From: Smittium mucronatum
Lineage: Eukaryota > Kickxellomycota > Harpellomycetes > Harpellales > Legeriomycetaceae
DNA length: 28,461 bases
NCBI GenBank assembly: GCA_001953115.1
Contig: LSSL01000492.1
Span: forward strand, 1-28,461
Direction of reading: 5' to 3'
How positions within the stretch are numbered: position 1 is the stretch's first letter; every line of letters starts with the position of its first letter. Positions 5,656-28,461 of this stretch are shown here, one piece after another. The notes under the pieces are model-generated. The model did no database searches, had not been told where the DNA came from, and was given only the letters and a program-made list of their open reading frames with translations. Both the position numbers and the translations under genes were made by a program.

Positions 5656-5871
5656 TCATAGTAAATCAGAACCAAACGATTTATAATTTCCAGGAAATGA
5701 GGAGAGTATAAAATTTCCAACTATTATTTTCTGTTGAAACGAATTGAAAATATCAAAGATTAATATCAAATCACATATTATTGGTACCGAAACTATTTCC
5801 CAGAAGTTATCTTTGTAATATTGGAGAATTCCTTCATTTAGGTTTCGGGAAGGAAATAAATCCCTTTTCAA
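5656..5871 (-). pseudogene. Possible decayed coding fragment, unrecognised
   Basis: A 71-codon minus-strand frame begins KRDLFPSRNLNEGILQYYKD and continues into a hydrophobic segment. Further upstream on the same strand (near 6.05-6.15 kb) another frame gives KDSENLRDVKKALKGLASL, a helix-like charged segment. Together with 4979-5215 these could be parts of one frameshifted minus-strand gene spanning about 4.95-6.15 kb. No catalytic or binding motif was recognised. Confidence 0.22.
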
Positions 5872-6428
5872 AATTTAGTTTGTGAAACCTGAAAGACAGT
5901 TTTTAAATAGCCGGTTCTTTAAGAATTAACTTTAATTTCCACTAATTATTCTTCACTAAAACTTTATTTTTCAGCTCACGCAATTCAGATGGGCATGGGA
6001 TGTTAAGTTAGCAGTGTAATTTAAATTTCTTGAGCCTTTCCTATTAAACTCGCCAAACCTTTCAAAGCTTTTTTTACATCTCTCAGATTCTCTGAATCTT
6101 TCCTACTGGAGTACCTGAACTTAGATGAAGAGGTATTGAAGCTCATCTCACTTAAATTGATTATCATTCCCATTTAAGTTATCGATTAAAATGGTGCTTA
6201 TATGAAAATTTACATCTTAAGCTTGCATCTTTTCCTTTCAACTTAATTTACATCAGCTGTGTTTGGTTGATGTACTTTTAGGTAATTCCGAATACAGAGC
6301 TATATCCTGAAATAATAATAGACTTGGGGGAGATTCGTTTCATTAGAATCTGTGCTGCCAATAATTTTATATTTGGTTTTATCAAAAATTATAAAAAAAA
6401 ATCTATTGCAGATTTTTTTAGAAATAGG

Positions 6429-6625
6429 TACTATAATATATATTTAACGGACTGGAATAAAGAAATAGTCAAAAATTAAAAGAAAAATATATCAGAAATT
6501 TTCGTGTAAAAGTATACTATAAAATATTTTGACCTGACTGGAATGAAGTACTGGAAAAAATCATAAGGCGAAAATAAATAGAAAAGATATACTGTAAAAC
6601 TTATGCCAAAATTTTTTTACCGGAA
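6429..6625. repeat. Degenerate tandem repeat, roughly 75-85 bp
   Basis: The word TACTATAA or a variant occurs at 6429, 6515 and 6590. Each is followed some 20 bases later by a CTGGAAT- or CCGGAAT-like word (clear at 6450 and 6535). The copies are strongly diverged. The repeat abuts the palindromic element on its left side but does not share its ends. Confidence 0.4.
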
Positions 6626-6869
6626 TTTAATATTTCCATAACTAAAATCATGAGAAAAATTAATTATCTGAATTATATTAAATCAAATACTCCAAAATTA
6701 AATTATGCAAGCCTGAATAAAAGACAAAAACAAAAAATTATAGCAATTAATTGTATAACAAAATTTGAAATAAATCCATCGCCCTGGAATTTCAAAACTA
6801 AAAATTGAGAAACTGAAAACAAAGGGAGTGAAAAAATCATATATCAATATCCCACAAACGAATCTAAAA

Positions 6870-7811
6870 TACACCTTTTCTAAGGCAAATTCAGAAAAGA
6901 TGTAAGCAAATAAAAAAAAAGTGAAACCAATTTGGAAATAGTACGGCAAAATCAGATTAAAGTGAAAATTAATTGTGAATAAGTGAATGTAAAATTTGGT
7001 CTCAATGCACCCAATTAAAACAAAATTAAAAATTAATATGAAAAAGTGCATCCAATTACAATAAAAGTAAATTTAAATCGGAAAAAAGTGAATCCGGATT
7101 GGTTTAAATAAAATGAAAATAATTTATAGGTTAATTATATGTTTATGATTAGGGGGAAAAATAGGTGGTAATTTCTAAGCTTATTTTACAAGTTTTTGAA
7201 TTACAGAGCAGAAAATGTGTATATGCAAATTTATTGGTTTTTAATAATAAAATATGTTCCTACTTTAAAAAGGCATCAGATTATTTCCATTAAAAGAATC
7301 AAAATAATTTTTTAAAGATATTTTGTCACATCAAATTTTTTTACAATACTGCATCATTAAAACCCAAAATTTAAGAGAAAATAGGAATTTCTGATTAATA
7401 AAAAATCCCATGGATTAAAAAGTACTTTTTCTTTGAAATATCAAAACTTAATAAATATTTCCTTTCTAAGTTTACTTTTTATAGAAATTTTATAAATATC
7501 ATGTTGAAAATATATGAAGCTTTTTAAATTAGATTTTATTTTTTCAATTTATATAAATAGAACCAAGAATTTCTAACGGAAAATTTTTTTTCCTATATCC
7601 AGGGGAAAATAAAATAGATATTTTCAATTTTTCAGAACAGCGGTAGTACACCTTTTCAATGCAATTTTGAAAAAAGTGGGGCCAAAATAAAAAAAAGTAA
7701 ATCCAATTTGAAAAAAGTGAAAGTTAATAAAAAATAAGTAGAAATAAATTAAAAATAAGTGAATTAAAATTGGTCATAGTGCATCCAATAAAAGAAAAAG
7801 TGAAATTGAAT
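6870..7811 (+). repeat. Left inverted arm of the palindrome
   Basis: This 942-bp arm begins TACACCTTTTCTAAGG. Within it, 6870-7105 and 7647-7811 are diverged direct repeats of each other. Both begin TACACCTTTTC and both consist of ~21-bp units. They flank a non-repeated core (about 7106-7646). Confidence 0.9.
6900..7105 (+). repeat. Outer block of phased 21-bp repeats, left arm
   Basis: The core word AAGTG, or a close variant (AGTA, AATG), recurs with GT at 6921, 6941, 6962, 6983, 7005, 7046, 7067 and 7088. One weak unit falls near 7025. The mean spacing is about 21 bases. A rough unit is AAAAAGTGNATCCAATTNGA. The mirror-image block lies at 8670-8875. Confidence 0.8.
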
Positions 7812-7880
7812 TCGAAATAGAGCGAAAATTTATTAAAAAAGTTAATATAAATTCGAAGAAAGTGAAAAAATTCCATGGAT
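7655..7880 (+). repeat. Inner block of phased 21-bp repeats, left arm and spacer
   Basis: GT of the core word falls at 7676, 7697, 7717, 7738, 7759, 7779, 7800, 7841 and 7862, with a weak unit at 7822. The spacing is 19-22 bases and averages about 20.7. The phase runs past the end of the inverted arm (7811) into the spacer, so the array is older than, or independent of, the present arm boundary. The mirror block covers about 7964-8120. Confidence 0.8.
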
Positions 7881-7963
7881 TTAGATGTATCAATCTTTCT
7901 TTTTAAAATAACCGCAAACTTAAACTATTAACCCTATGGAATTTTTAATTTTACTAAATTGAG
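7812..7963. other. Spacer between the palindrome arms
   Basis: A 152-bp asymmetric centre. Its left half continues the 21-bp repeats. Its right half is AT-rich with CTATGGAATTTTT, which loosely mirrors CCATGGAATT... read from the other side near 7873-7880, at a different offset. This may be a decayed continuation of the palindrome. No coding or regulatory site was seen. Confidence 0.6.
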
Positions 7964-8905
7964 ATTAAATTTCACTTTTTCTTTAATTGGATGCACTATG
8001 ACCAATTTTAATTCACTTATTTTTAATTTATTTCTACTTATTTTTTATTAACTTTCACTTTTTTCAAATTGGATTTACTTTTTTTTATTTTGGCCCCACT
8101 TTTTTCAAAATTGCATTGAAAAGGTGTACTACCGCTGTTCTGAAAAATTGAAAATATCTATTTTATTTTCCCCTGGATATAGGAAAAAAAATTTTCCGTT
8201 AGAAATTCTTGGTTCTATTTATATAAATTGAAAAAATAAAATCTAATTTAAAAAGCTTCATATATTTTCAACATGATATTTATAAAATTTCTATAAAAAG
8301 TAAACTTAGAAAGGAAATATTTATTAAGTTTTGATATTTCAAAGAAAAAGTACTTTTTAATCCATGGGATTTTTTATTAATCAGAAATTCCTATTTTCTC
8401 TTAAATTTTGGGTTTTAATGATGCAGTATTGTAAAAAAATTTGATGTGACAAAATATCTTTAAAAAATTATTTTGATTCTTTTAATGGAAATAATCTGAT
8501 GCCTTTTTAAAGTAGGAACATATTTTATTATTAAAAACCAATAAATTTGCATATACACATTTTCTGCTCTGTAATTCAAAAACTTGTAAAATAAGCTTAG
8601 AAATTACCACCTATTTTTCCCCCTAATCATAAACATATAATTAACCTATAAATTATTTTCATTTTATTTAAACCAATCCGGATTCACTTTTTTCCGATTT
8701 AAATTTACTTTTATTGTAATTGGATGCACTTTTTCATATTAATTTTTAATTTTGTTTTAATTGGGTGCATTGAGACCAAATTTTACATTCACTTATTCAC
8801 AATTAATTTTCACTTTAATCTGATTTTGCCGTACTATTTCCAAATTGGTTTCACTTTTTTTTTATTTGCTTACATCTTTTCTGAATTTGCCTTAGAAAAG
8901 GTGTA
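7964..8905 (-). repeat. Right inverted arm of the palindrome
   Basis: Exact inverted counterpart of the left arm apart from two inner mismatches. It ends GAAAAGGTGTA at 8905, after which similarity to the left flank stops. It carries the mirror copies of both 21-bp repeat blocks. Confidence 0.9.
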
Positions 8906-9500
8906 GATTTATGATTTCAAAAATCACCAAAATCTTCAGATTTTTTAGAGTCATGAAGAAATAATGTTGTTATTATATACAATTCAGCAATTTCATAAAT
9001 ACTTAGAAGATTTTGAGGAAAAAATGATAGATCTTTTAATCAGTAAAAAATAACCAGTAAAATTATTAATAAAATTATCTTAATCTTATAAATATAAATG
9101 TAAATGTAAATATTATCGTATAGTGATTTAATTTTTAGATTAATATCATTAAGTAAATTAAACTCAAATAATTAGTATTTAGAAGTAGTACTCCCAAAAT
9201 AAATTCAGCTAAAATTGGCATAAGTTTAGTACTAGTGTGTATCAATAAAGGATACCGTCTAAATTCGCAAAATAATATTACTATTTAATAATGTTTGTAA
9301 ATATATTGGTTTCCTCTAATTTTCTGTCAGAATTATTGAATCAATTTTTCTTGTTAATAATCATAATATTTAATCCACATCGTTCCTACCTTCGGAAACA
9401 CTTATCAGGAGAATTTTTCAGCTTAATATTCCCCAAATTTTAATCTAACCTGCGCTTGGAATAAAGGCTGATCACATAAACCAAGTTAATAAACTTTAAA
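8906..9500. other. AT-rich stretch, no gene seen
   Basis: Sequence to the right of the palindrome, with a minor TAAATG-type repeat near 9095-9115. The far C-terminal part of the minus-strand RT relic next to it may extend into this stretch, but I could not recognise it. Confidence 0.4.
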
Positions 9501-10070
9501 GATTGCTACCAATATAAATATTTTTCGAAAAACTTCTTTCGTTTCTCCTAAGATCAAAATATCATGTAAATACGATGATATTTATATTTAGCTTTTTTCG
9601 ACCATTTCAATATCTGACTGAGAAATTTGATGAAGGTGTTATGGTAGAGTATAGTTTGAATGGGAACAATTTGAATTGGTAACTACTCCAGCTACAATAA
9701 AATTGTCGTTACTTCTTTCAATTATTATGGATGAGTATGTGCATGAAAGAATTATTCAGGATGAGGAAGTCTTGAAATCCTTTCTATAGATCATACGAAA
9801 AATTTAGGCAAAAATTATATCTTTAAATTATTCTATTTCACGCTTGGTCCAGTATCTTTAGGCTTAGGACCTGTATTATTACCCTTGTCTTTTTTTATTA
9901 CGACGAAAATATCACTATGAAATCTGGGATTCAGCGTTTTGACCTCCTCAATTGCGTTCTTCGAGAAAAAAGACGCGATCGCACCTATCAGTAAAAAATA
10001 AGGTACAGAATATATCTTTCTTTTTTACCAATTCAGGAAATTTTTCATCTGCTGAGGTTCTGTAAGAAAT
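9500..10070 (-). pseudogene. DIRS/Ngaro-like retrotransposon reverse transcriptase relic, copy 2
   Basis: Read on the minus strand, RT blocks appear in the correct order across several frames. At about 9981-9892 there is KNAIEEVKTLNPRFHSDIFV followed by VIKKDKG, which matches the RT N-terminal block (usually ...GAIEEV...FYS..FVVPKKDGG). Around 9770-9652, FMHILIH and YQFKLFPF match the HIPI and YEF..LPFGL blocks, although the usual Gly after PF has become Lys. At 9561-9572 the catalytic box reads YLHD, within YLHDILILGETKEVF, so the first catalytic Asp has become His. Stops and frameshifts lie between blocks, and no RNase H or tyrosine recombinase domain was recognised downstream. The HIPI/PFGL pattern favours the DIRS/Ngaro group over gypsy. 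The element is inactive. Confidence 0.7.
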
Positions 10071-19149: not shown

Positions 19150-21660
19150 GCAGCTTAATACCTCAAAGTTATTGTTTATAAATTGTTTTCGAACTAGTTT
19201 TACTTTGAGTATTAAGCTTAGAATACTTAAGAATGCAAATCTAAAATTTAAATTTTCCATCGAAAATTCAATATCCGTGTTTTCAAATTGATTTTAACTG
19301 AAAGTATATTTATGCCCCCCTCCCCCTAACTGTTTTTAAATTATCTTTAAAATTAATTTTATGAGATTAATAGAATATTTATATACAAGATTGGGTTGTA
19401 GTTGGGATGAGCAAAAGGATCCACTCATTTCGTTGTTTATTCCATCTAGAGAAATAAATTAAGATGTGATCGACAGTTTTATTATCATCAATTTTAAATA
19501 AAAAAAATTTTATAAAATTTTTTTAGTGATTATTAGTCCGAAAAAATCCATTCTATTTTTACCATAGTTTTTGAATCCTAATTTTAGCGCGAAGTGCAGC
19601 AGATTAATATTCGCCAGATCCTTATTCGCAATTTTTTTGATCTATCGTATATTGGTAGATTTTGGAATGGGTAATTTTATTTTTACTGAAGAATATAGTG
19701 ATGTTTGTATTGCCATTTGAATTTAAACAAAAGTAATTTATATTCATCTTGCACAGATATCCACCCAGGTGATCAATCTAGCATTGATATATGATTTAAT
19801 CTAGTTCATTTTCATGCTTTCAAAGTTGATCAATATTGATATGTACCCAAATTATCAGTCATAGTTTTAAAAAAGACAGATTCTATTCCTATTTTTGCTC
19901 TGAATCGTTCTATGTAAGTTAATAATAACTTCGAATCAAGTTTGAGCCCTTAGTATATTTTGTTTTAGGTTGGCTCGACTCATGTTACTTCCATAAAATT
20001 GGTATTGAATCTATTAGAGACAACAGGAATCTGGAAAAAATGCATTAATTATATCTTTAGTTTACTAGAAACTTCATTACAGTTAATAGTAATTTATTTA
20101 TCGTAGAAAATCTTTATGACTTAAGTTTTATTTTTTATCCTGGAATCAGACAAGTTCCGTTTTTTTTCAGTATATACTCCAAGTATGTATATTGATCATT
20201 TTTAAATATGTTTTGCGTATATAATATCAGTTAGTGCAATCGATGGCCGGAGAAATTCAATGATTTTTTTTTTGGATTTATTTCAGTCATTTTTATTGCG
20301 TCCGAAAATTAATCAATTTTAATTTATGCCGATCGAATTTCGGTATCTTATTTTATCAATATCAGTGCTTCAACCGCAAAGAGCAGTTCATGTATTTTAA
20401 AAGTGATTTCAGTAACAAAAAAGTATAGTTATTTTTAAAAATGTCACCAATGTAGAAATAGAAGAATTTAGGGGAAGAGGTCTTCCTTTAAAGGGCACAC
20501 AAATGTGGCCATTGGTTTTATATAAATTATCTAAACTAAAAAATTCTATTTACAAGGATTGAAAAATACCTCAGATATCATTTATTAACTTCCCGAAAAT
20601 TCCAATGGCCTTAAGTTTGTTATGAATTGTGGTGTTTTAAAATTGTTCTTCGGCTTTGCTTAAATATATATAGCTTATGTAGTTTTTTTTTATATATTAT
20701 TTTTCTTAGGCATGAAATTTCGTATTTGGTGTTCACTTGAGCGGTGAACCCTTATAAATTTCCAAATATTTATTGTTCTTTGACTATTATTTCGTATTTT
20801 TTATTGATTTGTGCCAATTTGGTAGATATTATTTTGAATAAAAGCTTCATAAAAGTTGGAATAATCGAAATTACCCGATAAATAACAGTTTCCTTAGTAT
20901 CAACCTTTTCAATTACTGTAAATTTGGTACTAGCACCCACTTTTTTTGGGAAATACTCTTAATATTCGATTAAATCGATAATTTTGAAAATAACTTTTGA
21001 TATTTTTGGATCACGAATTTATTCTGAGGCCATCAATTTCCATACCTAAGTGGATATCACGTCAGATCCAGGAGAATTTTATTTGGATCTATCGGATATC
21101 TCCATGATAATATCAGTCTAATTGATATTATAGTTTCACACTAGGAAGTAGTCAAATTTGGCGAATATCAGCTATTCCCATTTAGTAATCCCGCAACTAT
21201 TTCCAGTAGTATCATTGGCCAGTTCAAAAAAAATGATTATTCCAAATTTGAAACCTTTTATTTTTATCGTACACCGGGCCGTACAAGATGCTCCTGATCG
21301 TATTCCCAGTATAAGATTTTTTGGTTCTCGAGTATTTTCTAGAGTCATTCTTGATAATTTGATTCTAAAGAAATTTCATTTTTTTATCGTAATAAAATTC
21401 GAATCAGCATTTATTTCGTTAATGGAATTCGATTTGGAGATTAAGTAATAGTTATGATTGATTTTTCTAAGCTTATAATCGTTAAATTTATTAATACGAA
21501 TTATAATGGCAAAAGCCTTTTTTTGCTTAGGGGGTTTTAATAGGCCTGTTAGCAGCTTTAGTGTCTTGAAGTCGCTTTTTTCTGATCATAAATTATCAAT
21601 AATATCTTCATAGAGCTCATTTAGAATGTTTTCGCGATCAATTAACACGCTAAATCGGAT
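19150..21660 (-). pseudogene. LINE reverse transcriptase relic with C-terminal finger, copy 2
   Basis: Minus-strand LINE blocks appear in order. FFELANDTTGNS (about 21222-21187) matches the FENLA.DTTG.S segment before the RT. SPGSDVISTQVWKLM (about 21075-21031) matches SPG.DGIP.E.W. DTKETVIYRVISIIPTFMKL (about 20905-20846), then FKIISTKLAQINKKYEIIVK and EQ (20778), match D...NYRPIS..P...KL..KII..KL and SEEQ. LLFAVEALIL (20386-20357) is the LLFADD.LIL catalytic box with both Asp residues lost. FKIDDNKTVDHIL with SRWNKQRNEW (19507-19421) matches the finger of the copy at 242-330, but its cysteines are gone. QLGGGGHKYTFS and NTDIEFSMENLNF (about 19330-19240) match that copy's LLGGESKHTLS and DNKFLLETAKF. 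The two copies are therefore related. The GC-rich run at about 19315-19326 is the Gly-rich codons. It is thoroughly decayed and more AT-shifted than copy 1. Confidence 0.8.
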
Positions 21661-22850
21661 AATATTGACTAATTATTCCATGGTAAATAGAATTATTTTT
21701 ACTATGATTTTTATTTTTTTGGCTGAAATTTGAGGTGAATCGAAATTTCAATTTTATGAAATCATAATATGGTCTAATATTTCGAGAATCTTATTTGCTG
21801 TGCATCAATAGTTTTTTCTGATGATTCCGACCTTGAAAAATACATTGATTCTCCGGTCAATTTCACTTTTTTTATATTAAGAGCTAACTTAATTTGCAAA
21901 TTACTCTTATATATGGCTCAAAACAATCCGATTTAATTTTCATGCTTTTTTATAGTCAAAATTGAAAATCCTAAGGATATATATATATTTTTAGTTTTTT
22001 AATTTTTTTATGAGGCTTTGTTTTAAACATGTCCAAAATAATATTATTTTACTCATAACTTTCTTTTACGAAATTCCCTCCTTTTCGTTAGACTCTTTAT
22101 AAATAAAACACTGATATCCAATAAATTTTTTCTTTTTTCTTAGATCACTTAGACCATTTATGTATCAGCAAAACTAAGGCTAAGATAAATTTTGTCTCAA
22201 TAAGAGCTCCAAATTAAATAATCAATCAAATAATTGGATTGATTTATAAGATATCGAAAATTAAAATTATATTTAACGAATAGAAACTTAACGAGGTATT
22301 TGAAAAAGATATATTTAGATATGGAATTATCCTCGAATATTATGGCAGTTTAATAAGAAAAATTTAATAATATCTCAATTAGAAAATTATCAATGTGTTT
22401 TTAATGAGGAATGATCTGAGAATAATTTTATATCTAAAAAAAGGATGTTAGCGTAAGAATTTTTTTAAATTTTTGATTTTTCCCACCGTTAATTATGAAA
22501 ATAATCGGTCATAATCATGAGTTATCCATTTTGACGTTTTGAAACGTCAAAATTTTCGATGGGTGTGATGTAAAAAAAGAACCAAAATCAAACGGATTCT
22601 CCGCAATCTAATTTGTAATTTATCCCGAATTTATTTTTGCTTATTTCTGAGGAAAAAGAATGAAATCTCTTCAATAATATACAGAATCTGCGGAATTTGT
22701 CGATTTAAACCGAAACTTCTTAACAAAAAAAATTTTTTAACAAGAAATAAAGCATTTTTACAACTAAAAATGCCCGTTCCATGTATAAATCGCTTTTTAA
22801 AAAGAAATTTGAGCCGAAAGATTGATGTTACTAAATTTTAAACCTGAGTA
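21661..22850. other. Mostly unassigned stretch between LINE and MULE relics
   Basis: If the LINE was interrupted by the MULE, the junction should lie here. Short minus-strand coding-like strings occur (for example RSFGLNRQIPQILYIIEEIS near 22.7 kb), but no endonuclease or other motif can be defended. A perfect hairpin lies at 22528-22553. Confidence 0.35.
22528..22553. other. Perfect 12-bp inverted repeat with 2-base loop
   Basis: ATTTTGACGTTT is followed by TG and then AAACGTCAAAAT, giving a perfect 12-bp stem. It contains two ACGT-type cores. It could be a transcriptional terminator-like hairpin, a protein-binding palindrome or chance. It lies between the MULE and LINE relics but matches no terminal repeat that I can identify. 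Confidence 0.6.
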
Positions 22851-22864
22851 AACTTATTTTCTTT

Positions 22865-22922
22865 TATTACTATTACTATTACTATTACTATTACTATTAC
22901 TATTACTATTACTATTACTATT
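22865..22922. repeat. TATTAC hexanucleotide microsatellite
   Basis: About 9.7 uninterrupted copies of TATTAC (58 bp). On the minus strand it would read as alternating Asn-Ser. That produces the apparent end of a 92-codon frame at 22854-23132, which I do not regard as a gene. Confidence 0.95.
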
Positions 22923-23129
22923 TATATTTATGATAAATAAGCAATTTAAAACTCTAATCCATTTAATATCTTTGTAATAAAAGTTTGTCTTTTTATAAAA
23001 GAAATATTTTAATTTCAAGCTGTTCTTAAGTCTACTAAAAACTTGGATATAATCTTTTACTGAAATAATATAAGTATAAAGGTTTATTTCTTTTATTGAT
23101 AAGTGAATAAAATATAAAAAATATAAATA

Positions 23130-24690
23130 CATCGTTTAAATTTCCGACTTGCAAGTTTTCAAATCATGAGCCTCACACTTACATTTGCTGAAAACTTACT
23201 TTCTTTTCTTATTAGATTTGATGTTTTCAGTTAATATTGATTAAGATTCTATTATTTTTCTTTGTGGTCTTCCTCTAGATACACTTTAAATTAAAGGACC
23301 AATAAAATCGTCATCATTATTTTTAAACATGGAAAAAACTGTCACTATGCAGTTATTGTTACCTGAATACATGTATATACTCATTTAAAGTTAAATATAT
23401 CTATATCAGAGAATTTATAACTATATACAAGAATTTCGCTGCAGAAATTTCATGATTACATGGAATTCAAAACTCTTGGAACTCATCGCATGTACAAGTG
23501 TTGTTGTTAAAATTTACAATAAAAGGTACTTTGTTTCGACTCTCCGAAACAATGACAGTTTTATCAGTAGTTCTATTTATAAAATTCAACGTTATACTAT
23601 TGGAAAAATATATTTTAATCTTTTGCTGAACGATAGGAAGTATATTTGAATTTTTTTAGTACTTAATTCATATGAGTACAATTAGTATATAATTATATAA
23701 AACTGTTTTTAGTTATTTAAATAAAGTATGCTTAAATAAACAACTATTACATTTTTTCAAGCACATAATTCTCCAAACTTATCAAGATATCTAAAGGAGG
23801 AAAAAATCGTAATTCTTTCATAGCAGAAAAAAAAACAATAACATTTGAAGTTACGAAACTAAACCATGTTTGGTTTCGAAAATTTCTTGACCATATCTCA
23901 GGGTTTGATTCGACTATCCAATCCTTTATTTTTTTAAATTTTTTTATGCGTATTATCTTTTCTATACACGTGTTACATATACATTTCGTAAAAGGTTTTG
24001 TCAGTTCCAAAAGTATTTTAGAGGTTTTTCATCCGAATTTCTAAGAAAAATTAACCTGAATATTCAATAATTAAGAATAACCTGTCACATTTTAGCTGAA
24101 AAAATCTTTAGTAGCTTTTACAGCCTCTTATCTCTATCTGAGATAGCTGTATTAATTGGGTTAGTTACATCAGCTTTTTTTAAATTTATAAATTAAAAAC
24201 TCCAATTTTTTCCATAATCAACTGGACTATTGATTGAGCCGATATCTATACGTTATTATTTTCATCTATTGTGGAAGCCATCATTAGGACGTTTTTTTTA
24301 GCATTTATTTGAAAACAAGTAAGTGAATCAGAAAAAACGACACCGTTTATATGTTTTAGAACTTGGATTTGATACGAAAGTGAAATTAATATTCTTTTAA
24401 ACCTTATTTAATCTCATAAATTTTCATGTTACAAAACAACAAACCCATTTGCATCTTTGAATTTGGAAATATGCACTTTCATAAATTTAAATCTACCATC
24501 AGGATCAAATAATTAGCCACTTTTAGTTATTTAAAAACAACCCCAAACTATAAATCGATCATTATTTCACTTCTGATTTGAATTATATCATCTCAAAATC
24601 CCATTTTGCTCTTTTTAGGCTCGTTTTTGATCATCTAGGATAAATTTTTTGAATTTGAGGCACAAAATCTAGATTTTATTTTAACTTCAA
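23130..24690 (-). pseudogene. Mutator-like (MULE) DNA transposase, decayed
   Basis: MULE transposases cut and paste DNA with a DDE catalytic core and usually carry a SWIM zinc finger. The minus strand shows the expected order in shifting frames. HISKFKDANG (24473-24444) is followed by SLSYQIQVLKHINGVVFSDS (24383-24324), the equivalent of VIGIDGTH, with a candidate first Asp at 24327-24329. LMMASTIDENNN follows (about 24282-24250). Next come GSINSPVDYGKNWSF and AISDRDKRL (24147-24121), the usual W.WFL and ISDRDKGL blocks with the second Asp. ESNPEIWSRNF, TSNVIVFFSAMKELRFFPPL and DILISLENYV (about 23910-23750) match NPE.W, TSN..E and the PP..L helix. CTCDEFQEF, a stop, then IPCNHEISAAKFL (23496-23440) is the SWIM CXC...CXH finger with all four ligands. 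GRPQRK (about 23260) and CKCEAHDLKTC (23183-23151), a shortened CCHC knuckle, end the protein. At least two frameshifts and several stops make it inactive. The last catalytic acid is not identifiable. Terminal inverted repeats were not found. Confidence 0.85.
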
Positions 24691-25430
24691 ACACAAGACA
24701 CTTGTGAAGCATGTTAGAACTTTTTGATAAAAAACAAGAGTAATTTATTTTTGAGAAATAAAATAATAATTTATATCCGCATTATTTTTTGACTCAAATT
24801 GCTACTTTTTGTCTCTTTAACATTTATTTAATTTAATATTTATGTAAATAAGAGCATTTTTATATGTAGTATCATTTATTCCCTTATATTTATTTGTACA
24901 ATCATTTTTTTGATACATCATACTTGGTATCTAAAAATTTTGAAGTGGATATTTTGAACTTAAAATAGAATATAAATTGTCTTATTCTTACCTTTAAAAA
25001 CATTTTTCTGTTTAAAAAATCTAAATTAATTGATTATTTTGAAGTATTTGTTGGTTTAAATAGAATCAATTTTTTTTTCTTCAGTACTCTGGTTATTTTT
25101 TTAATTCTATTCAAAAAAAAGAACATGAATAACACAAGAAGCTTAATTCATACTCCAGATTTTATTTTTATTGGTTATTATAGTATTTTATATAAGTTTT
25201 TTAACGAAATGGAGAGGATTAATTAAAAGGGGGAGAAATGTAAAATATGTTATTTTGGAATTTTTTTAAAAAATACTCTTTATATATATATATGGCCAGA
25301 ATATTCAACTTTTGACCTTATAAGCTTATAAATTCGCTTGGTATGTGCAAACAGGTGACTAAAAATCAATATTATTTTTTTAGGCATTTCCAATCAATAA
25401 TCCAATATACCCATGTTTAAGGCGATTTAT
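24691..25430. other. AT-rich stretch, no gene seen
   Basis: Upstream (minus strand) of the MULE relic. It would be expected to hold that element's 5' terminal repeat and its boundary with older DNA. I could not recognise either. A short TA run lies near 25280-25292. Confidence 0.4.
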
Positions 25431-25439
25431 GTTTACTTA

Positions 25440-25640
25440 TTTTTAAGCAAGCTTTGTACCTGATAGCAAATAATAGTTTGGTACCACCTTTAGAAGTGTC
25501 AGTTTTGGTCTAAATTTATCAGTATCCAGTACTTGTATATCTGTATGTTTTTTATTAAGAATTTTTATGATTTGTTCCAAAATATCTTGCTGTGCAGAAT
25601 TAATGTAGTTTTCAAGCTCTTCTCCTGAAATTTTTAGCTC
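25440..25640 (-). pseudogene. Decayed coding fragment, unrecognised
   Basis: One minus-strand frame is open over about 65 codons and reads like real protein: ELKISGEELENYINSAQQDI, LEQIIKILNKKHTDIQVLD, then FRPKLTLLKVVPNYYLLSG. It starts helical and charged and ends more hydrophobic. No family was recognised. It lies on the same strand and downstream of the RRM/knuckle relic at 26.3-27.6 kb and upstream of the LINE RT, so it could be a middle part of the same LINE. Further fragments occur at 25.65-26.0 kb (for example SIRKSIL and NFNWLNLMIDELINILNF). Confidence 0.4.
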
Positions 25641-26279
25641 TCTGAAATTAAATGTTACATATTATTTTATTATTAAGCGGTTTATTTAGGTGATTTATCT
25701 TAGACCGTAATTAAAAATTTAAAATATTAATCAATTCATCGATCATCAAATTTAACCAATTAAAATTCTACAAAATAGATTTGCGGATGGAAAATTTTAT
25801 TTATTTCCCGTCGAATTTTGGCATTTATAGATTTTTCGATTAGACTCATTTATTTTGACAGTGGTTTATTTTTTGTGGTCTCGCGACCAAATCTCGTGAC
25901 GCCATCGGTTTTTACGATGCTTTATTATTTTTACTATAAGCACGTTTTCCCTCAAGAATTAGTTGTAAACAATATGCTGTTTAACTGTATGCTTTTTGAG
26001 CTCTTGTATGATAAGCACAAGTAGTTCATCTACTATTTTTCATGGCTTTTTTGATATTTAGTAAGATTGTTAAACGTTTTCGTATTCATTAAATCGTAAT
26101 TTAGATGTGCGATTAATATAAAAATATAATTGGCTCAATTCGATAATATTGATCACCTAAATAGATGTTGGATACATACAGCATGTGGCAGTTTATCTTT
26201 TCATTCCTGTAAAAATCAGCCTCATTTTCTATCAATGGGCTCGAATTTTCTTAGCCTACAGTCATAAAAGCGGGTGAGT

Positions 26280-27580
26280 TGAGCAACATGTTATAATTGA
26301 CACAATAAGAGGCTTTCTTGGTCTTATTAATGCAAGAGAACAGATTTTTTCATCGATTATTGCTTGAATTTGAGAAATAATTCCTTTAATGCTTTTAAAT
26401 TATGTGGCCTCAGGTTCATTAGACATACTTTTAATTATAATTTCTACTCATTTATTAAATTCAGAAGTTTTTTGTTCTTCGATGGCCATTACATCTTTCT
26501 AGTAACTTTCCGAGATATTCTTTTTTTTTGTTATTGTTGGTTTCTTATAACACCCTCATTAAAATTTTTTTCATTAAATTTAATTCCAATATTTGATTTT
26601 TCTGATTTATGGGGACGTTCTTTTGAACGGTTGTTCCACTCCTGCGTTCAATTACCTTTTCGATTTCTATTATCGAACTAATTTTCCCGTCGAATTTAAA
26701 GGTTATCAATTTAATTTCATTATCAATTGATGAGTTGCCTCTTTTTTTAAGCTCCGGGAATCCGACTTCAATTGTTCCATATTTTTGCAATATCTGCAAG
26801 CCTTATTGCATAATTTGTAGAATATATTGATTTTACATTCCTCGTGATATATTAAGCTCGGCAAGACTGTGTTTTTACTGTCTTATTATTTTTAAAAAAC
26901 AATAATTCCATGTTTTAGATATTTTATGGTCCCCTTTTTGCACCATGCGCTGATGTCGCATATAGTGCCAAAAAGTGAAAGCTGTTGGTTTACTAGCTCA
27001 GTTATATCTTTGATTCCAAGATCCCTGCAATTGGGGATGTTGATAAACACAACATTTTGCTCTATCCAAACTGTTTAACACAGTTCAACCAGTTTATTAT
27101 ATTAGACTAAATAATTAGAAATAAGGATATTGGCATCATCTGTATTATTAAAAATAATTTACGTAATTTTTTGTCCTGGGGTCATCCTTTTTCATGTGGT
27201 GTATGTCAGATATATACCGGTGGAAATACTCGATGCCATTTACATAGTCATCCTTGATTTGGCTCCAGGAACAGCATATTTTAATATCTGATCCACCAAC
27301 ACAGAACTTCTTTAGACATTTTTGTTCCCCGTCATGAAGCATATGTTTAACAGAGACCTCTGAATAGAGGCTCATGTCAATTATGCTTTGGAATTTGGGG
27401 ATGTTTTTTTTTTTTTGGGTTTCTTTTTTTATAGTTATTTTAGTATTATAATTCTTAGACTAGATTTGGAATTCAGCCGAATATCGGTCCTGAGGCCCAG
27501 GGAAGTTTACCACCCATTAGTTTTGAAGACCCGTGGTGAAATTTCTTGCAGCCTCCCCTTTATCAACCTTAGACCATAAT
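26280..27580 (-). pseudogene. Retroelement ORF1/Gag-like relic: RRM-like domain and zinc knuckle
   Basis: The minus strand carries consecutive protein-like segments in different frames. A 75-codon opening segment (27375-27148) includes LYSEVSVKHMLHDGEQKCLK and WSQIKDDYVNGIEYFHRY. Then 54 continuous codons (27055-26895) read NVVFINIPNCRDLGIKDITE, LVNQQLSLFGTICDISAWCK and KYLKHGIIVF. This is the pattern of an RNA-recognition motif: an RNP2-like VFINIP, a helix, LSLFG.I, and an RNP1-like HGIIVF. A knuckle follows, CRYCKNMEQLKSDS (about 26798-26757), where CX2CX4HX4C has lost its His (now Gln) and last Cys (now Ser). Beyond it FNK.VEIIIKSMSNEPEAT and FKSIKGIISQIQAIIDEKI extend to about 26.3 kb. 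RRM plus CCHC is typical of RNA-binding ORF1/Gag proteins of fungal and other LINEs. Coding-like sequence may continue upstream to about 27.58 kb. The 105-codon plus-strand frame at 26364-26681 is a shadow. Confidence 0.6.
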
Positions 27581-27620
27581 TGCCTGATACGTTTAGAGGG
27601 TCTTGGCTCCTACATGGTTG

Positions 27621-27688
27621 GTAAGCTTAAAACAAAAAATCGAAATGGTCTTTCTGTGCTTTCTTACATTTTTTTTTTTTGGTTTTAG
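27621..27688 (+). other. Intron-like segment in tandem unit 1
   Basis: Within ATGGTTG|GTAAGCTT...TTTTTGGTTTTAG|GATC there is a consensus-like 5' splice site, a poly-T tract and a TTTTAG 3' site, 68 bases apart. No open reading frame spans it, so splicing is only a possibility. Confidence 0.3.
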
Positions 27689-28211
27689 GATCGAGAATCG
27701 GATTCCAGATCTCAATCTTTATTTTTTTTGGCTTTCCTGCTATTTTTTCTAATAAGAGCGTTTAGAGATCGATATAAACTAAGTTTAGATAGCCTATATA
27801 CAATATACAGCTCTCTGGTGCTATCTGGGCAGCTTTAAGCAGCCTGCTTAGTAAATGGTAATAGTAATAAACTTTTTTTTGATAACGGAATTCAGCGATT
27901 TTATTGGCTAATTCAATTTAAAAAATCTAAAGGAGAGAGAGAAGTCCAGTGTAGCGGAATTCAGATCTTAATCGTATTTTTTCTTTCTTTTTTTCCTTAT
28001 AAGAGTGTTTATTAATCAATGAATACTAAGTTCAAATATCCTGTATACAATATATAGCTTTCTAGTGCTAGCTTTTAGCTTATAGTAGCAGGCTTAGTGT
28101 CGATAATATAAAAAATGAGAATAGAAATAAACTTTTTTTGATAATGGGATTCTGCATTTTTATTGGATATTTCAACAAAAAAAAACTCTAAAGGAGAAAG
28201 CGAGATGGTTG

Positions 28212-28280
28212 GTAAGTATAAAACAAAAAAACAAAAGTATTTTTTGTTTATTCTTCTTTTTTATTTTTTTTTGGTTTTAG
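28212..28280 (+). other. Intron-like segment in tandem unit 3
   Basis: Counterpart of the unit-1 segment: ATGGTTG|GTAAGTAT...TTTTGGTTTTAG|GATC, 69 bases. Both ends are conserved although the middle has diverged. The middle unit lacks the segment together with some flanking bases and has about 12 unrelated bases in its place, so the absence is not a clean splice-out. Confidence 0.3.
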
Positions 28281-28461
28281 GATCATGATTCGAAATTGAA
28301 ATCTCAATCTTTTTTTTTTGGCCTTTTGAATCGTGTTGTATTTAAGAGCGTTTGGAGGTCGATAAACACTAAGTACATATAGTCTGTACACAATATAAAG
28401 CTTTCTAGTGCTAACTGGTTAGCTTATAGTAGCAGGCTTAGTGTCGATAATATAAAAAATG

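Follow-up and report, generated by a model that had tools for sequence, protein, structure and literature searches.

How does a nearly perfect palindrome come to be present in DNA that is otherwise decayed? The window (the whole 28,461-nt stretch of DNA analysed here) contains two open reading frames of at least 100 aa counted from a start codon. A Pfam search of all 24 frame-pieces that span it (stop codons read as X) gave one match, which is under the cut-off, and five single window open reading frames gave matches under the cut-off only. The palindrome displays two arms (6870-7811 and 7964-8905) of 942 bp each that are 152 bp apart and pair at a constant coordinate sum of 15775. The inverted-repeat listing rounds their identity to 100%, but direct comparison of the arms shows that arm positions 921 (7790/7985) and 939 (7808/7967) do not match; these two mismatches are confined to the innermost 22 bp adjoining the palindrome centre. 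Pairing ceases at the palindrome termini, which gives sharp ends, TACACCTTTTC and GAAAAGGTGTA, and two different flanks lie beyond. An earlier note, made from the letters of the window, had described the arms with their coordinate sum and two mismatches, the sharp ends with a shared motif, and the decayed surroundings, and the listing, the direct comparison and the Pfam search bear this description out. The runner-up inverted pair in the window (inverted-repeat listing) is only 63 nt with 73% identity, and a chance origin of the palindrome is therefore excluded.

The genome (73.8 Mb, 2957 contigs; C-numbers denote contigs and L-numbers fetched regions) was searched for further copies. There are at least 43 matches to the outer part of the palindrome (query 6870-7646) and at least 42 to its centre (query 7641-7840), both counts being lower bounds because scoring in this search is limited to the top candidates. 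Forty regions around these matches were fetched for comparison. They sort into two related families, an outer type (the host) and an inner type (the guest). Outer-type elements are mostly 2.5-2.6 kb with ~600-610-bp arms and a ~1.35-kb interior; inner-type elements are ~2.6 kb with ~620-670-bp arms, and are also found as 419-561-bp MITEs and in one 1.5-kb form. Outer and inner arms are ~60% identical across 600 bp. Element termini are TACACC...GGTGTA or variants, and TA is present at both ends in 17 of the 22 elements listed, some of whose ends were set by eye.

The TACACCTTTTC end motif is found twice per arm, at 6870 and 7647, with an inverted copy of the inner one at 8118-8128; the inner motifs belong to a second, enclosed element whose ends are of the same kind. 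Intact outer-type copies match the query to ~768-776 on one arm and to ~591-629 on the other. Intact copies carry host bases 612-777 on a single side; in the window these bases are on both sides of the guest, and the remainder of the host interior (half Y) is absent from the window. Half a host has therefore been mirrored around the guest. TA is present at the guest insertion point in several intact outer-type copies. The host/guest junction at 7646/7647 was found only at the window locus, among the at least 42 guest and at least 43 host matches listed. As judged from these alignments, the palindrome is real and composite, a guest MITE with one half of a host transposon mirrored about it (Table 1); the earlier note was right as to the palindrome itself, but had overlooked the nest of two elements and the mirrored host half. 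Imperfect tandem arrays are present in the arms (2.2 copies at 7006-7095, 4.2 copies at 7685-7768), and tandem-repeat rows at 8004-8091 mirror the second array.

Table 1. Parts of the palindrome, in window coordinates.
Feature	Positions	Strand	Basis
Composite palindrome, mirrored host half around guest MITE	6870..8905	.	Alignment to other copies
Left terminal inverted repeat of host (outer-type), host bases 1-611, starts TACACCTTTTC	6870..7480	+	Matches left and right arms of intact copies
Host subterminal segment, bases 612-777	7481..7646	+	One side only in intact copies
Guest: 482-bp inner-type MITE, own TACACCTTTTC ends	7647..8128	.	Matches ends of inner-type elements/MITEs elsewhere
Guest left arm, 165 bp, mismatch sides 7790 and 7808	7647..7811	+	Arm comparison
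Central 152 bp without pairing, common to guest and composite	7812..7963	.	Inverted-repeat listing
Guest right arm, mismatch partners 7985 and 7967	7964..8128	-	Arm comparison
Host bases 612-777 in mirror image, at the place taken in intact copies by the other interior half	8129..8294	-	Alignments
Host right terminal inverted repeat, ends GAAAAGGTGTA	8295..8905	-	Alignments

The outer-type transposase is best displayed by L041, which has a Pfam DDE_3 match of 49.8 bits (cut-off 28.6). L045 gives 31.3 bits in one piece and 26.7 bits, under the cut-off, when read through whole, and L038 gives 24.8 bits, also under the cut-off. Inner-type DDE_3 matches are all under the cut-off (L012, 16.4; L010, 15.0 and 17.4 in two frames; L013, 14.9 bits), and L009 showed no Pfam match with both strands scanned. 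The distance from the second D to the last E/D is 33 residues in L041, L045 and L012, i.e. in three of 12 copies; the other nine are decayed and do not match the D...E/D pattern (the script covered the second D onward). The longest open frame across 16 elements is 133 aa, and there is no open transposase frame among them. An alternative genetic code was considered and rejected: no frame was convincingly intact under codes 4, 6, 10, 12, 15 and 16, code 6 opening long frames on both strands. Two protein searches gave no transposase relative at E <= 0.001, and a search of solved structures gave none at E 0.1.

The host and guest families fit the Tc1/mariner superfamily, the host with a broken DDE_3 transposase. 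The guest is a non-coding MITE of 482 bp with 419-561-bp relatives (L015-L018) and 2.6-kb relatives (L009-L013), and it is assigned to this superfamily from its ends and the 2.6-kb relatives. The suggestion in the earlier note that the element may be undescribed is thus partly upheld: the superfamily is a known one, with a DDE_3 domain, and no relative of the transposase was found at the threshold given above.

Side observations were also made on other contigs. One and the same MITE locus appears in L016 (C2239) and L017 (C1810), which agree in every feature measured, a doubling which suggests retained haplotypes or duplicate contigs. In L057 (C2957) the bacterial model finds an organelle-type SSU rRNA at 691 bits, and tRNA-Asn, tRNA-Ser and the end of an LSU are also present; its open reading frames are presumably nad4L- and cox2-like, and we take the upstream one to be a LAGLIDADG-type intron protein. 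C2957 looks mitochondrial.

Elsewhere in the window, known RNA families gave no match at gathering score, and a tRNA reading was rejected after a fruitless search. A weak SWIM zinc-finger match is on the minus strand at 19701-28461 (16.1 bits, cut-off 19.6), which may be what is left of a MULE transposase. Positions 27629-28461 contain imperfect repeats: a 74-nt unit is present three times (27753, 28000 and 28343) and other units twice. An exact 43-nt repeat is found at 28075 and 28419, and its second copy finishes at the window end. An inverted 40-nt pair (3937-3976/10970-11009), 88% complementary and 7 kb apart, has the palindrome between its members; the two may mark the limits of a larger element, now decayed, and the six frames between them gave no Pfam match. 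Each 1-kb flank of the palindrome (5870-6869 and 8906-9905) gave a full-length match to itself and four weak partial matches in the genome search. This search did not yield another haplotype, an allele with an unmirrored host, or an empty site of the kind that the earlier note had proposed to look for and that would show a TA target duplication.

The two arms of a copy were compared with each other across copies. The comparison covers 15 of the 40 fetched regions and the window, i.e. 16 copies, over ~600 bp with gaps ignored; it omits L042 (one terminus missing), the short MITEs L015-L018, and one-armed or contig-cut loci. L027 and L037 are on the same contig, L043 has an N run, and L014 was compared over ~240 bp (239 columns). 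Arm identities (%) are: window 100, L037 99.2, L038 96.7, L039 78.5, L040 100, L041 96.8, L043 99.7, L044 87.9, L045 99.0, L046 98.0, L009 99.7, L010 96.8, L011 98.7, L012 99.7, L013 99.7 and L014 82.8. Thus 13 of the 16 copies have an identity of at least 96.7%; L044 and L014 are weakly homogenised and L039 not at all.

Between copies the picture is different. Arms of different outer-type copies have a mean identity of 77.1-78.2% (maximum 84.7) and those of inner-type copies 75.4-75.8% (maximum 82.8), with left-right identities equal to the left-left values. A maximum-likelihood tree places both arms of a copy as sisters in 15 of 16 cases, the exception being L039. Among seven outer copies the identity is 77.8% in the left arm, 74.5% in the subterminal segment, 75.4% in the interior and 77.6% in the right arm. 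Divergence at the three codon positions of seven outer copies (the window excluded) is 0.242/0.231/0.235 and 0.257/0.234/0.247; as these values are nearly equal, the copies have diverged as dead DNA. Copies are ~22-26% diverged from one another, and both families are, on these comparisons, old and diverged. Arms that decayed ~22% apart without correction are therefore expected to be ~78% alike, and L039 fits this value, its differences being even along the arm (22, 20, 19, 28, 22 and 29 per 100 bp). Near-identical arms within diverged, dead copies indicate that the arms have been rewritten after insertion by arm-to-arm copying.

The distribution of the remaining differences is in accord with this. 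Per 100 bp they number 0, 0, 0, 0, 0 and 22 in L038, 8, 1, 0, 0, 0 and 26 in L041, and 1, 0, 0, 0, 0 and 11 in L046. Identical runs extend over 920 bp in the window, 601 bp in L040 and L045, 546 bp in L037, 534 bp in L038 and 531 bp in L046; these runs break off abruptly, that of L038 into 26 differences within 78 bp. Long identical runs with abrupt edges are, as read from the alignments, the pattern of gene-conversion tracts. The differences in L010 are scattered along the arm, as would be expected of an older conversion tract, and L009, L011, L012 and L013 (4, 10, 4 and 4 differences) have a less clear edge. The near-zero differences inside tracts could come in part from the merging of near-identical arms in assembly, but a jump from ~78% to near identity should not. 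Of the two choices given in the earlier note, comparison with other copies supports that of an old element kept uniform by gene conversion.

Mirrored structures are also found at other loci. The guest in C2805 (L037) is a 2550-bp outer-type element, with 808 bp mirrored on either side of it at 100% identity. This stretch is inner-type interior (bases 556-1353 of the L009 element), and in L009 the other side holds only its first 78 bases. The contig begins inside the mirrored host, and the far mirror end is beyond it. In C717 (L040), 250 bp of the arm of a third family is mirrored with one difference, and the mirror stops at most 3 bp from the apparent terminus of that family, TACAGGGTTTCC. In C2739 (L011), a 142-bp flank, for which the genome search gave no second match, is mirrored at 98.6%. 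L043 has a 42-bp mirrored flank (90%), and the remaining copies have 9 bp or less. In the window, C2805, C717 and C2739, i.e. in four loci, the centre of the mirror coincides exactly with an element. A counter-example is the L016/L017 MITE, which lies between 110-bp inverted repeats (79%), a probable nest in a putative host, with unmirrored flanks. The nest, the mirrored half, the absence of Y, the homogenised arms, the sharp tract ends and the recurrence of the pattern can all be read from the aligned loci.

A copy of the third family (L068, C877:27300-29850) has the left end TACAGGGTTTCC, and 505-bp arms that are 95.6% alike. Its matches to a Tc3-type HTH and to DDE_3 are weak, both under the cut-off, and it is ~78% identical to the C717 copy. 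The third family is, on these features, a Tc1/mariner-like one with the same arm homogenisation. A second, weaker palindrome (159-bp arms, 74%) was observed at L010:4348-5067, ~190 bp past the element end.

We regard it as probable that the composite arose when a host decayed, a guest inserted into it, and a break was repaired from the opposite side, by which the host half was mirrored. A ~2.6-kb Tc1/mariner-like host, consisting of arm A, the interior parts X and Y and the inverted arm A', would have died and decayed, and a guest MITE (G), which has inverted repeats too, would have entered at host base ~777, giving A-X-G-Y-A'. The repair of a later break at or beside the far end of the guest may then have used the opposite side as its template. 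The end left by the break, terminating in a guest inverted repeat, would prime on the matching repeat opposite (by fold-back or on the sister chromatid); copying would proceed outward through X and then A, and closure would follow by annealing with the host's other inverted repeat. The product would be A-X-G-X'-A', with Y lost and one near-perfect tract across the guest and host arms to the host terminus. In guest-free copies the same arm-to-arm copying would merely maintain arm likeness. Copying past the element, if closed without homology by joining to the flank, would leave the flank mirrored, as in C2739. The order of events, the break and its position, the direction of copying and the repair pathway are those that we infer. 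The palindrome is a recurrent product, most likely one of repair between transposon inverted repeats; it counts against this explanation that many tracts are nearly free of differences instead of displaying a spread of ages, that the flank searches gave no allele or empty site with an unmirrored host, that the probable L016/L017 nest is unmirrored, and that L044, L014 and L039 are homogenised weakly or not at all.

An assembly or amplification artefact, in which the true locus is a complete host with its guest and the assembler, having passed the palindromic guest, turned back through the identical arms, appears unlikely. It is true that 13 of the 43 listed host matches are within 60 bp of a contig end, that L043 contains its N run and L012 one ~630 bp outside the element, and that C2805 itself starts within the mirrored host. 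However, a walk-back would give the same flank twice, and the palindrome halts at the host terminus with two different flanks. An assembler should not merge arms ~22% apart, and the arms of L039 were resolved. Such an artefact should also leave an orphan Y half with the guest. None was found by position in a search with the L037 half (39 matches, 35 of 35 scored candidates), C1721, C2453 and C540, whose context was unclear in this search, being ordinary host sequence after fetching. Mirrored nests are moreover found again with different partners. The other choice of the earlier note, a recently transposed foldback-type element which brought its identical arms along, has the intact appearance of the TACACC/GGTGTA ends and the almost nil arm divergence in its favour. 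It is nevertheless very improbable, as the composite junction is present once among the matches listed, both families are old and diverged, arms are equally alike in other dead, ~22%-diverged copies, and differences tend toward tract edges.

Two further explanations have a very slight probability at best. The guest may have entered the centre of an existing perfect palindrome or cruciform by target preference, with no need of later copying. AT-rich palindromic TA sites are favoured by Tc1/mariner elements, and the four loci with an element at the exact mirror centre agree with such a preference; but in the two loci whose host family is known, intact host relatives are not palindromic at that place (bases 612-777 for the window, bases 79-808 for C2805), and insertion alone would not equalise the guest's own arms, through which the identical tract extends. 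By breakage-fusion, sister chromatids cut at the guest end would have fused head to head, with collapse of the guest repeats and healing via the host arms. This likewise would give A-X-G-X'-A' and an outward tract able to overrun the element (as in C2739), but it takes more steps than templated repair, and the sequence holds nothing to distinguish the two; we consider it scarcely probable.

Repair templated by the opposite side has consequences for the reading of such loci. High arm identity can be taken to mark an inverted-repeat element as young; in this genome the arms of dead copies reach 100% identity while the copies themselves are 22-26% apart, the arm-identity clock has therefore been reset, and such dating would be wrong. 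Visible tract ends, one of them reaching flanking DNA, make inverted-repeat-templated repair measurable from an assembly. The mirrored nests also display a way in which ordinary transposon nesting can give rise to long palindromes, which break assemblies. A tentative extension, which we find possible but doubtful, is that the long-TIR transposons here seed palindrome growth, in that nesting followed by inner-repeat-templated repair mirrors the outer element and sometimes the flank. If this were so, successive insertions might give ever larger near-perfect palindromes with dead arms that are continually rewritten.

The Tc1/mariner superfamily includes members with long inverted repeats, e.g. 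Tc3 and Minos. The elements described here resemble this superfamily in their TA ends, the DDE_3 relic and the spacing of 33 residues from D to E/D in three copies. They differ in that the arms are ~610 bp, there is no sequence relative at the thresholds used, and there is no open transposase frame in the 16 elements.

Foldback (FB) elements consist almost entirely of inverted repeat. The composite is similar to these and to the Tetris foldback elements, as outlined in PMC4079207, in that nearly all of it is inverted repeat. Unlike them, as that source outlines them, it shows no sign of mobility, is made of two other elements and is present at one locus. A foldback element moves as a unit and has several copies, and the junction of the composite is found only here among the matches listed. 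Foldback elements also have long inverted repeats composed of short tandem repeats; the tandem arrays in the arms here are only the imperfect ones given above. Sex-chromosome palindromes, according to the outline in PMC7023750, likewise have arms held alike by arm-to-arm copying, but those palindromes are gene-bearing and the structures here are transposon nests. Among the titles and abstract openings of the open-licence papers listed, no paper on mirrored nested transposons was recognised, which is weak evidence of absence.

The closest precedent in the sources consulted is the 2RT form of Galileo in Drosophila. As outlined in PMC3573991, 2RT copies have long TIRs of at least 600 bp with 98-100% identity within a copy. 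An internal sequence that is one-sided becomes inverted beside the other TIR (TIR1-F1-F1-TIR2); Marzo et al. (2013, PMC3573991) propose that a break was repaired there with the other TIR as the source of the copy. Host bases 612-777 have likewise been recruited, mirrored, to both arms. Galileo is of the P superfamily (PMC3573991), however, and the relatives found here carry DDE_3 and are Tc1/mariner-like. Compared with 2RT copies as outlined in that source, a second transposon is at the mirror centre here, and flanking DNA can be mirrored as well. The composite thus appears to work like a 2RT copy, but it is not Galileo.
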